From NCBI GenBank assembly GCA_949373145.1, contig CASICI010000025.1, positions 1 through 64,000 on the forward strand: a stretch of DNA of 64,000 bases, in the 5' to 3' direction. The translations under genes and the position numbers were made by a program. Positions within the stretch are counted from its first letter, which is position 1. Each line of letters opens with the position of its first letter. Origin of the DNA: an uncultured Phycisphaerales bacterium (GTDB lineage: Bacteria; Planctomycetota; Phycisphaerae; Phycisphaerales; SM1A02). This document shows, piece by piece, positions 40,305 through 45,271 of the stretch. The notes below the pieces were generated by a model, which saw nothing but the letters and a program-made list of their open reading frames with translations, did no database searches and was not told where the DNA came from.

Positions 40305-41622
40305 TCATTCCGGGATCCTGCGGCCATGCGGGTCGGTGGTCGGCGTACCGGTCTCTCTCGCCAGCTGTTCGAGCATCTCCTCATCGGTGACATGCTCGAG
40401 TCTCATTGCAGTCTCATGGACGTGGTCCGGCGCAAGACCGGCGCTCTTGGCGAGCCATGCTTCCCAGAGTCTGTGCGATCGGACCAGAGTGGCTGCGCGT
40501 CGTCGACCTGCATCGGTCAGCGTGATCAGGTCTTCTCGTCTCATGAAGTCACCCTGACTCAGCAGGTGTCGAAGGCTCCATGCGATTTCGAATCTCGAGA
40601 CCCGGCGAGCAGTCGTCAGATCGTGGGTGAGCACTCGAGCCGAGCTCTGGCCGCCACGTTCCTCCAGGCGCCAGGCGAGCGCAAGCAGATCCTCCGTCGT
40701 CGTTTGAAAACGAAAACGCCAGCGTCGGACGCTTCTGGGCACCACGCCATGGGTTGGATTGATGAGGATGCCAACGAAGAGCAGGCAACCACCGGTGACG
40801 GCGATCATGCCTGAAGTCGGGACCGATCCGTACCCGATGAGATGGGGAAGTTCGACCGCTCCAAGGTGCCCCAGGACCGCGGACGTCAGCCCCAGGAATG
40901 ACGCAAGCCACAGCATGCTGGTCAGGTTCGTCGCGAAGAGGCGTGCACAGACCGCCGGAACGATGATCATCGCGACCACGATGATGCTGCCGACCGCCTC
41001 GAATGATGCCACCGTGGTCACCGCCGTCATGCCCATCAAGAGGTGGTGCATGAGATCCGGGCGCATCCCCTGTGCCCGCGCCTGTTCCGGATCGAATGCC
41101 GCGATTCGAAACGCCTTGAACCAGACGATCAGAATGAACAGATCGATCAGAAGCACGATCGCCACCATCAGGAACGCTCGGGGCAACTGCACGCCGCCCA
41201 GCAGAGGAAGCGTGACGAGGTCGAGTGGTGCGAATTCAAGAGCACCGTACAGAACGCAACTGGGATCAAGGTCCACGGAGTCCGCGCCTTGGACGATCAG
41301 CAGAAGCCCCACCGCGAAGAGGGTTGTGAAGACCACGCCCATCGCGGCGCCTTCATCCACGCGTCCGAAACGTTTCAGCCACTGGGAGAAGAATGCGGTG
41401 AGGAACCCTGCGACGATCGCTCCCGCGAACATGATTCCATTCGATCGAGAGCCTGTGAGAAGAAAGCCGATGGCAATGCCGGGGAGGACCGCATGGCTGA
41501 TGGCATCGCCCATGAGACTCATGCGTCGAAGCACCAGGAAACAACCCGGCAGGGCACAGGCCACCGCGCAGGTCGCCGCGATGACGATGATCCAGCCATC
41601 GAAGAAGAGGCTCCATTGCGTC
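40305..41622 (-). CDS. Metal (Mn/Zn/Fe) ABC transporter permease fused to a C-terminal DtxR-like domain (second permease)
   Basis: ABC-3 permease (CFLVLRRMSLMGDAISHAVLPGIAIGFLL) followed by wHTH and LTDAGRRRAATLVRSHRLWEAWLAKSAGLAPDHVHETAMRLEHVTDEEMLEQLARETGTPTTDPHGRRIPE, a DtxR metal-binding/dimerisation signature. Confidence 0.88.
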
Positions 41623-42992
41623 ATCACCGTCGTTCTCCCCGTTCGAGGGCGGACAGGCAGGATGATCGGGTGCGGGCTTGGAGGTATCGAACCCCGTTCG
41701 GTGTTCAATTCCTTTTCCAGTTCATCGAGCAGCTCGAGTGGAAGCAGGTGCTCGAGATCGTCGGCCCCACGGTCGACATGGTCTTCGTCGAAATCAGCCC
41801 GGCGCAGCAGATAGTGTTCCCAGAGTCGGTGGCGCCGCACGACTTCGACCGCGCGTCTTTCACCCGTGGGTGACAGACGTATCTCGGTCTCGGAAACGGT
41901 CTGGATGATCGTGAGCAGTCCTGCACGGTGAAGGCGTTGGCAGGTGTTCGAGTTCGCCCATCCTCCGCGTGCGGTGATCTCGGATTTGTGGCAGAAGTCC
42001 GAGCCGGAATGTTCGAGGCTTTCCCAGATCGCTCGAAGAGCATGTTCACGTTCCATGGATCGTGAACGCCGTCTCAGACGGAGCGCACGACGAAGCAACC
42101 CGCGTTGTCGGCCGAAGACGAGGCTCAAGAGAAAGAAGCCACCAAGTCCCAGGACCACCATCGCTCCGGCGGGCAGATCCGGGGCGAGTGCGCTTGAAAG
42201 GGTGCCGGCCCAGCCGCCAAGCCCGCCGATGACGCCTGCCGTGAGGAGCAGGTGGCCGGTCCTGTTGGTCCAGAATCTCGCGGCTGCCGGTGGGATCACG
42301 AGAACCGCGATCACGAGCACGAGACCGACCGCCTGGAGACCCACCACGACGACTGCGATCACCCATCGCCATGAGCAGCAGATCGTAGGCTCCGGTCTTC
42401 ATCCCTCGCCCACGAGCGTAGTTCTGATCGAAGCAGATCAGTCTCAACTCCTTGAAGAAGACGATGCATGTCGTGATCGTGAGCACCGAAGTGACGGGCC
42501 GATCATCATGGCGTCACGCACCAGCATGGACGCGGTCTTTCCGTAGATGAACGTCTCCAGTCCAGCCGCACTCGCGGTGGTCTCCTGTTGTGCCAGTCCG
42601 AGAAGCGCGGCACCCGCCCCGAAGAAGCGTGCTCAAGACCACGCCGAGTGCGGAGGTCCTCTGGAAAGTCTTCCTGAACTCGTCAACCAGTGGACAGCGA
42701 TGATTCCAATGATGCCCGAGCACGTCGCGCCGATCAGCAACACGCCATGGGATTTCACACCGAAGCCCATCGCCGATGCCACAAGAAAGGCAAGCACGAT
42801 TCCGGGCAGGGTGGCGTGGCTGAGTGCGTCGCCAAGAAGCGCACGGCGTCTCAGGAGCATGAACGAACCCACGACTCCACCGGCCATTCCCAGAGCGCTG
42901 ACACCGAGAACCACCACGCGGGTATTCCAGTTGGAGAGAAACAACAGATCAAGGAATGTCGTTTCAGTCGCGGGCATGAGCGCGCTCATCAT
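41620..42992 (-). CDS. Metal ABC transporter permease fused to a C-terminal DtxR-like domain (first permease), frameshifted several times between 42360 and 42660
   Basis: FMLLRRRALLGDALSHATLPGIVLAFL; C-terminal LSPTGERRAVEVVRRHRLWEHYLLRRADFDEDHVDRGADDLEHLLPLELLDELEKEL; no stop before the next permease in the reading frame given. Confidence 0.78.
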
Positions 42993-43804
42993 CGACCGAC
43001 CCCTCGTGCGTGCCCGGCAAGAGCCTTTGATGCATGGTCCAGCAGAGTGAGGGTTCCACCGTAGGTCGCTTCGATGTTCTCAGGCGTGAAGACGTCTTCG
43101 GTGGGTCCGAATGCCACCACACGTGTGTTCAGAAGCAGGACATGATCGAAATATTCGGACACCGTCTGAAGGTCATGGTGCACCACCACCGTGGTGCGTC
43201 CTCGAGTCTGCAAGGTTCGAAGAAGAGTGACGATGGTCTGTTCAGTCGAGGCATCGACACCCGCGAATGGCTCATCCATGAGATGAAGATCAGCCTCTTG
43301 AACGAGAGCTCTGGCGAGAAAGGCGCGTTGTTGCTGACCGCCGGAAAGTTGCGAGATCTGGCGCCCGGCGAATTCCGCGAGTCCGACTTCCTCGAGTGCG
43401 TTGAGTGCCTGTCGTTTGATTCTTCGGTTGACCGGCCGAAGCATGCCGAGGGTGTGATAGAGCCCCATGCAGACCACGTCCAGAACGCTCACCGGAAAAT
43501 CCCAGTCGATCGATTCGCGTTGTGGAACATAGGCGACACGTTCACGTTGAACCGCGTAGGGGCGACCGAACATCTGGACATGACCACTCAATCTGGGGAC
43601 GAGATCGAGTGCGGCCTTGATCAAGGTGCTTTTTCCAGCTCCGTTGGGGCCGATCACACCGACCAACGAACCGGGAGGAATGTCGATGTCGATGTCCCAC
43701 AACACGGGGCGACGCTCGTATGCGACCGTCATCGCATGAATCGAGAGTGGGGCGTCCGGTGAGTGCTCGGCTCGAGTTTCTGCGGGGATCTCTTTTTTAC
43801 TCAT
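42989..43804 (-). CDS. Metal ABC transporter ATP-binding protein
   Basis: Walker A GPNGAGKST, signature LSGGQQQRAFLARALVQ, Walker B LHLMDEPFAGVD. Confidence 0.92.
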   Translation of the reverse strand: MSKKEIPAETRAEHSPDAPLSIHAMTVAYERRPVLWDIDIDIPPGSLVGVIGPNGAGKSTLIKAALDLVPRLSGHVQMFGRPYAVQRERVAYVPQRESIDWDFPVSVLDVVCMGLYHTLGMLRPVNRRIKRQALNALEEVGLAEFAGRQISQLSGGQQQRAFLARALVQEADLHLMDEPFAGVDASTEQTIVTLLRTLQTRGRTTVVVHHDLQTVSEYFDHVLLLNTRVVAFGPTEDVFTPENIEATYGGTLTLLDHASKALAGHARGVGR

Positions 43805-44825
43805 CTGGGTTCCATGCTCTCCGTCGCGTCTTCAGAATCGAGACCTCCCCCGAGGCCCCTGGTGACGGTTTCGATGTCATGCATCATCATGCCGACCCAT
43901 GTGCCCTCGGCAGTGCCTTTCGGGCCCATCGAATCACTGAACAGTTCACCTCCGATGACGACATCGTGCCCTTTCGCCGCGGCACCCTCGATCAAGGCTT
44001 CGATGCTCCGGCGGGGCACGCTCGACTCGATGAAGACGGCTGGGACGTTGCGTTCGACGACCAGCGTCACCAAGGCCTCGAGGTCGGCCAGGCCGGCCTC
44101 GCTTTCAGTCGTGATCCCCTGAATGGCCTGGACCTCGATGTCGAATGCCGCCCAAAATAGCTGAAGGCATCATGACTGGTGATCAGGACTCTGGATTCGT
44201 TCGGAATCGAGGCGATCGACCTTCGACCGAAGCGTTCGAGTTCACCGCACTGCTCGAGCAGTCTTTCGTGATTTGATTTGAACATCAGTCCGTCACGCTC
44301 CCTCAGACTCGTGAGTCCCTTCAGGACCGCATTCGAGCATGCCCCCAGAGTCGGGGTGAAAGCCAGAGATGAGGGTCCGGGTGTTCGCCGGTGCCGTCCG
44401 GGTAGAGCAGTTCATCTGAGGGAATGGTCTCTGCGATGGCGATCGAGGGTCGATCGGTGCCTGCTCGTTCCAGAACTTCACCCATCCTGCCTTCCAGATG
44501 ATGGCCATTGAAGAAGATGATCTGGGCCGCGAGAAGGGCGGCGATGTCATCACGTGTGGGTTTGTACAAGTGGGGGTCCACTCCGACCCCGATCAGGCTG
44601 TGAACGCGCACGGCGTCACCTCCGATGCTGCGTACGAGGTCCGCGATCATTCCCGTCGTCGTGACGACTTGGATCGGTCGGCTCCCCTCGTCCGCTCGGG
44701 ATCCTGCTCGGTCTGTTCACTCGGATCCTCCACAGCTCATGCAAGCAGAGCGCCAGCAGGATCAGGAGTGGTGGCAGCGCAACGCAGGCGTGTCTTTTCT
44801 TCCAGGGCATGTCATCGTTTCCTGA
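43801..44825 (-). CDS. TroA/ZnuA/MntA-type substrate-binding protein, broken by at least three frameshifts
   Basis: Pieces in different frames: MIADLVRSIGGDAVRVHSLIGVGVDPHLYKPTRDD; RVLITSHDAFSYFGR; VPAVFIESSVPRRSIEALIEGAAAKGHDVVIGGELFSDSMG. Confidence 0.82.
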
Positions 44826-45244
44826 TCGTACAGAAGTGTTTCATCGCTTTGAGTGTGGGGGGTGAACAGTGGTGTTCGATTCCCTCGGAATCGGCATTCG
44901 CCGTGCCTTTCGGGAACGCCGAGTTCGATGAGAAATCTCAGCACGATTTCATGTCGTGCTTTCGCCGTCTGGGCGAGTGCTTTTCCCGCCTCAGTCAGTT
45001 CGATCGGTTGATAGGGGCTGGTCGTCACCAGGTCGCGCCCGACCAAACGAGCAACGGTTCTGTTGGCCGTCACGTGTGAGACGCCAAGTCGTCTGGCAAG
45101 TCTGGTGACTCTGCAGGAACCCTCTTCGGCGTGCAGTTCCGCAATGGCTTCCACATAGTCTTCAGCGATTTCGTTCGAGTGGTCTGCGCGCGTCTTGCGA
45201 AAGACGTCCGCCTGTTGGTGAGGCGTTCTCTTTTTTGTAGCCAT
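44824..45244 (-). CDS. mntR: MntR/DtxR-family metalloregulator, frameshifted near the C terminus at about 44910
   Basis: SNEIAEDYVEAIAELHAEEGSCRVTRLARRLGVSHVTANRTVARLVGRDLVTTSPYQPIELTEAGKALA; alternative-frame tail GTANADSEGIEHHCSPPTLKAMKHFCTIRKR*. Confidence 0.85.
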
Positions 45245-45271
45245 GGCTACATATTATGTAGTCTTGGCTAC
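45237..45271. promoter_or_regulatory. Tandem palindromic operator overlapping the mntR start
   Basis: GTAGCCATGGCTAC (45237-45250, perfect palindrome) and GTAGTCTTGGCTAC (45258-45271), 21 bp centre to centre; the first contains the mntR ATG. Confidence 0.7.

Follow-up and report, generated by a model that had tools for sequence, protein, structure and literature searches.

A metal-responsive repressor built into a permease is known from Chlamydia trachomatis, where YtgR, once cleaved off YtgC, acts as a repressor of ytg and trpBA (PMC5599777, PMC7755916). The YtgABCD importer comprises a solute-binding protein (SBP), an ATPase and a pair of permeases of the ABC-3 type, the first of which carries a DtxR-family domain at its C-terminus; this single tail is cleaved, DNA-binding and iron-dependent, and no separate MntR has been described for the system. 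In the MetNI and ModABC importers, a fused cytoplasmic domain binds the substrate, dimerizes and blocks transport, i.e. acts by trans-inhibition (PMC10710835). The PsaBCA, MntABCD, SitABCD and Treponema TroABCDR systems belong to the same transporter family as the locus analyzed here, and their operons are likewise under a DtxR-family repressor. To our knowledge, their permeases have no repressor-derived tails, and protein-level feedback inhibition of Mn/Zn/Fe ABC importers is poorly documented.

The window (the whole stretch of 64 000 nucleotides that was analyzed) comes from the 2.1-Mb assembly of an uncultured Phycisphaerales bacterium (42 contigs; estimated completeness 75.5%), which belongs, as Chlamydia does, to the PVC group. 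It encodes together a ZnuA-type SBP, an ABC ATPase and ABC-3 permeases, the combination that marks a cluster A-I Mn/Zn/Fe ABC importer. Both permeases join an ABC-3 domain to a C-terminal DtxR-family domain, the architecture of the YtgC-YtgR type, and the closest named records with a fusion of this kind are Phycisphaerae MAGs. Unlike in Ytg, the tails are present on both permeases, their helix-turn-helix (HTH) lacks conservation and the operon also encodes a free MntR (YtgR is compared here by its published description). Whereas the fusion of a repressor domain to a permease is known from Chlamydia, the doubled, apparently DNA-binding-dead pair seems to be new.

Organization of the operon

Five genes of the minus strand follow each other in the order mntR, SBP, ATPase, permease 1 with tail1 and permease 2 with tail2, with intergenic gaps of approximately +1, −4, −4 and about −1 nt according to frame tracking. 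The preliminary description had read these genes as one operon headed by its own regulator, and this reading holds: the ORF coordinates place all genes on the minus strand with mntR first, both ATGA overlaps (42992–42989 and 43804–43801) are exact, and a search for internal promoters found no convincing one inside the operon. The arrangement SBP-ATPase-(permease+tail)×2 was found again in relatives across Planctomycetota and, because the gene order recurs across the class and the phylum, it reflects more than chance. Frame tracking even makes the coupling tighter than had been noted, with the end of mntR (44812) and the start of the SBP gene (44810) 1 nt apart.

Pfam assigns mntR to Fe_dep_repress, the SBP to the ZnuA type, the ATPase to ABC_tran and the permeases to ABC-3 (twice), and a 685-aa ORF (40305–42362) holds two Fe_dep_repr_C domains. 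The count of three DtxR-family modules in one operon given in the preliminary description is right; these are the only PF02742 matches in the genome. Upstream, an intrinsic terminator (45290..45326, minus strand; 10-bp GC stem, 9-nt loop, U8; MFE −22.5 kcal/mol, z −4.75) separates the operon from the gene of an ECF-type sigma factor (45397–45957, minus strand). Just beyond the other end of the operon, a zinc-ribbon-like ORF of the plus strand ends at 40281, and a gene for a CorA-family divalent-metal transporter lies a few kb away (36276–37259).

The mntR gene (44812..45244, minus strand) encodes a free Mn-type repressor with an intact winged HTH (PF01325 at 32.8 bits, above the cut-off); the metal half sits past a frame break. 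The NCBIfam MntR profile PRK11050 (cut-off 153) scores 121.6 bits on the window frame, which is truncated by the indel, and 198.6 bits on the intact relative from locus L055. The gene of the cluster A-I SBP, of the ZnuA/PsaA type (43801..44810, minus strand), is followed by that of the intact 271-aa ABC ATPase (42989..43804, minus strand), which overlaps its neighbor by 4 nt at each end and for which the best NCBIfam profile is the manganese MntA of Deinococcus, with a score below the cut-off. The putative SBP ligands, H, H, E and D, assigned from the motif and from the ligands known for PsaA, suggest Mn/Fe rather than Zn. Manganese, possibly Mn/Fe, is indicated indirectly as the imported metal, because the regulator is of the MntR type, the presumed SBP ligands include E and D, and PsaBC is the best fold match of the permeases.

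Reading frames

Although five genes are present, as originally described, they are not five intact ORFs. Alignment to intact relatives reveals about eight 1-nt indels over roughly 3.6 kb, which break mntR (once, near 44910), the SBP gene (about three times, between 44810 and 44707, near 44340 and near 44150) and permease 1 (about four times, near 42655, 42615, 42490 and 42360). A probable fifth break in permease 1 lies ahead of its stop, at the junction with permease 2, in which case the stop would be the TGA at 41626–41624. The frames of the ATPase and permease 2 are clean. In the 685-aa ORF, the end of permease 1, tail1, permease 2 and tail2 share one frame; in nearly all relatives they form two genes. 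All searches used the gene pieces as they stand, with no frame mended.

The frame-broken copy in the window may be inactive. If mntR, the SBP gene and permease 1 were pseudogenes in the source genome, nothing in the operon would work, and the breaks are indeed denser here than in the rest of the window, in an assembly where most ABC ATPase domains are whole. However, every break reads as a 1-nt indel, the inspected ones are consistent with homopolymer length changes of 1–2 bases, and at least one other ABC domain of the assembly is truncated. Assembly errors are the more likely cause, because the two operators, the ligand residues and the codon usage are intact, as are the ATPase and permease 2, and the copies of the relatives are intact as well; genuine decay is accordingly considered unlikely. 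As a separate observation, the density of 1-nt breaks in mntR, the SBP gene and permease 1 is far above that in the neighboring genes, with the clean ATPase gene lying between them.

Promoter and operators

A sigma-70-like promoter, TTGACT-16-TAATAT, is located at 45251..45278 (minus strand; 9 of 12 matches). On its own, this site is weak, given that shuffled sequences yield approximately one such site, and it is overlapped by two candidate MntR-type operators spaced by 21 bp. Operator 1, ATGTAGTCTTGGCTACAA (45256..45273, unstranded), has two mismatches to TTGTAGC-N4-GCTACAA, a pattern with the 7-4-7 layout that we presume for the E. coli MntR box; operator 2, TTGTAGCCATGGCTACAT (45235..45252, unstranded), covers the mntR ATG at 45244. 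When up to three mismatches are allowed, 8 of 100 shuffled versions of the window also yield two sites; taken by itself, the window is therefore weak evidence for operators, and the genome and the relatives provide the stronger case. In the 2.1-Mb genome, operators 1 and 2 are the sole matches with at most two mismatches, compared with 29 for a reversed control pattern. Across 40 loci of the class, windows around the starts of SBP and regulator genes, 26 kb in all, hold 10 such sites, and the other 556 kb hold 2 (p 2e-12). At no more than two mismatches, the box is present in 8 of the 21 loci with a short MntR and in none of the 10 with a long DtxR-type regulator (p 0.03). In L042, L043, L044, L047, L058, L059, L067 and L069, where no MntR box was found at this threshold, the short MntR is replaced by an adjacent free regulator of the long DtxR type, in most cases with a FeoA domain.

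DtxR-derived tails of the permeases

Permease 1 (41624..42992, minus strand) consists of an ABC-3 transmembrane domain and tail1 (41640..42110, minus strand), a DtxR-like metal-binding/dimerization domain with an unrecognizable HTH. Permease 2 (40305..41624, minus strand; alternative start GTG at 41627) is intact in frame and likewise has an ABC-3 transmembrane domain, followed by tail2 (40308..40757, minus strand), a DtxR-like domain of the same kind with a non-conserved HTH. The permease models match PsaBC (E 7e-16 and 5.5e-14, permease 1 via the model of an ortholog), the best structural match; the ortholog model combines a fold like that of the PsaBC Mn importer permease with a DtxR fold, and permease 2 is modeled by AlphaFold with a pLDDT of 92.2. 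The model of tail2 matches the Mn repressor DR2539 (2.0 A over 133 columns). The tails share their fold and metal ligands with DR2539, SloR and IdeR but these proteins are soluble and DNA-binding, with a conserved winged HTH.

The two halves of the tails have fared differently. The metal-binding/dimerization domain (PF02742) was detected in all 29 P1 tails and all 32 P2 tails of the two-permease systems, whereas the DNA-binding domain (PF01325) was matched in none of these 61 tails at E 0.01 (HMMER; absence of a match is not proof of absence). All 29 neighboring free regulators of the relatives match both domains, so that for PF01325 the difference between tails and regulators is highly significant (Fisher p 3e-24); single-permease systems lie in between, with a match in 10 of 37 tails (p 2.5e-5 compared with the paired tails). 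The mean information per column of the HTH drops to 1.76 and 1.47 bits in the tails from 2.84 in free MntR, compared with 3.40, 2.90 and 3.04 bits, respectively, for the metal half. Four residues (H79, E83, E105 and H106 in DtxR numbering) are invariant in 61/61 tails, and the remaining ligand positions fall consistently into two sets: most P1 tails have H/D/D and most P2 tails D/H/E. At the C102/E99 position, E is found in 25 of the 32 P2 tails, but tail2 of the window has M there. In the P2 tails of L038–L041 (e.g. L038:9997–10356), approximately 16 or more HTH residues are missing, and the metal half is present.

The preliminary description had taken the permease-linked modules for repressors, so that, with free MntR, the operon would encode three of them. 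Proteolysis would then release the tails as soluble repressors, as YtgR of C. trachomatis is cleaved from YtgC to repress ytg and trpBA (PMC5599777, PMC7755916). Despite the lack of sequence conservation, the AlphaFold models of the tails keep the winged-HTH fold in outline and, because they do, the shape of the tails would be compatible with DNA binding. However, no part of the tails is less conserved than the HTH, which is unmatched by the DNA-binding profile and largely deleted in L038–L041; a free MntR with a conserved HTH is usually encoded next door; and in the AlphaFold models a continuous helix (residues 295–323), rather than a flexible linker, runs unbroken from the membrane domain into the tail. 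The tails have probably lost DNA binding, and their release as repressors appears improbable. Redundant repressors, as a leading reading of the tails, were rejected on the HTH evidence.

Distribution and origin of the fusions

ABC-3 permeases are present in 119 of the 150 sampled genomes of the class. Among 35 two-permease loci, a sample biased by selection for long or paired frames, tails occur on both permeases in 26, on the first only in 2, on the second only in 5 and on neither in 2. Because some relatives have one tail or none, the tail pair is not obligatory. In L052 (58–2634), permease 1, tail1 and permease 2 are joined in one natural 858-aa ORF, a single-chain two-permease protein. Two-tail operons are also found elsewhere in the phylum (e.g. 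L105–L108, L113, L114 and L117), and single-permease fusions in Opitutae, Saprospiraceae and one Ignavibacteriales genome; the genome scan for fusions was run with a narrower tail alignment, the mixed one being too diverse. In Saprospiraceae (L139, L142, L148 and others), many tails keep a C-terminal extension that matches FeoA/SH3, i.e. a full three-domain DtxR on the permease. A literature search for DtxR-permease fusions in Planctomycetes found no paper with the terms tried.

In the phylogenetic tree of the tails (149 columns, midpoint root, many unresolved forks), all 98 tails are located opposite the 29 free regulators across a branch with 100/99 support. The P1 and P2 tails are mostly sisters (95/92), with the divergent P2 tails of L058 and L059 placed elsewhere. 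The simplest history compatible with these sequences would be a single fusion, followed by duplication of the fused permease and then by relaxation of the DNA-binding constraint.

A proposed model of two-level feedback

The features of the operon are, with moderate confidence, best explained by a high-affinity importer of Mn (possibly Mn/Fe) with two levels of feedback, MntR acting on transcription and the tails on activity. Control of transcription is assigned to MntR because of the operators and the regulator family: free MntR loaded with Mn(II) would sit on the two tandem operators, which overlap the promoter and the mntR start codon, and would repress all five genes including its own. Control of activity is assigned to the tails because the ligands, the dimerization core and the rigid connection to the membrane domain are kept, whereas conservation of the HTH is lost, and by the proposed analogy with MetNI and ModABC, in which a fused cytoplasmic domain also binds the substrate and dimerizes to stop transport; there the regulatory domains belong to the ATPase and differ in fold, whereas those of the window are on the permeases and repressor-derived. 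Permease 1 and permease 2 would pair as a heterodimer, with the last membrane helix of each predicted to continue unbroken into a DtxR-derived domain that retains the metal ligands and the dimerization core and presumably no longer maintains DNA binding. The tails would act as sensors of Mn(II)/Fe(II) in the cytosol: as its level rises, they would bind the metal, change the way they associate under the membrane and keep the transporter in an inactive state. The computations establish the operon and its operators, their conservation, the domain content, the ancestry of the tails, the retention of their ligands and the lost conservation of their HTH; which metal is imported, repression, pairing of the two tails and gating are inferred.

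The layered metal feedback proposed in the preliminary description thus survives in its three modules but not as repression by three repressors; the tails more likely throttle the transporter than the genes. They could instead buffer metal while tethered to the membrane, or serve as docking domains in the manner of a chaperone, passing the metal that leaves the pore on to MntR or the cytosol, with no gating. The conserved parts of the tails, the metal ligands and the dimerization core, fit such a role, as does the co-encoded MntR, but a helix that passes without a break from the last transmembrane segment into the tail points to mechanical coupling, and buffering would not require the dimer core to be so strictly conserved; this alternative is given a low probability. 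As to how the gating system arose, it can be proposed, tentatively and with somewhat less than even confidence, that the tails descend from one ancient repressor-permease fusion which was duplicated together with the permease, yielding an asymmetric metal-sensing heterodimer with two ligand sets that gates the importer from beneath the membrane domains, while the separate MntR took over gene control.

Significance

The operons described here are common in Planctomycetota and provide natural, testable examples of importer feedback. They illustrate a route by which a transcription factor could become a regulator of a transporter. In addition, they are relevant to the puzzling question of why Chlamydia builds a metal repressor into a permease: the fusion appears to be old and, given that it extends to Opitutae, Saprospiraceae and one genome of Ignavibacteriales, widespread.
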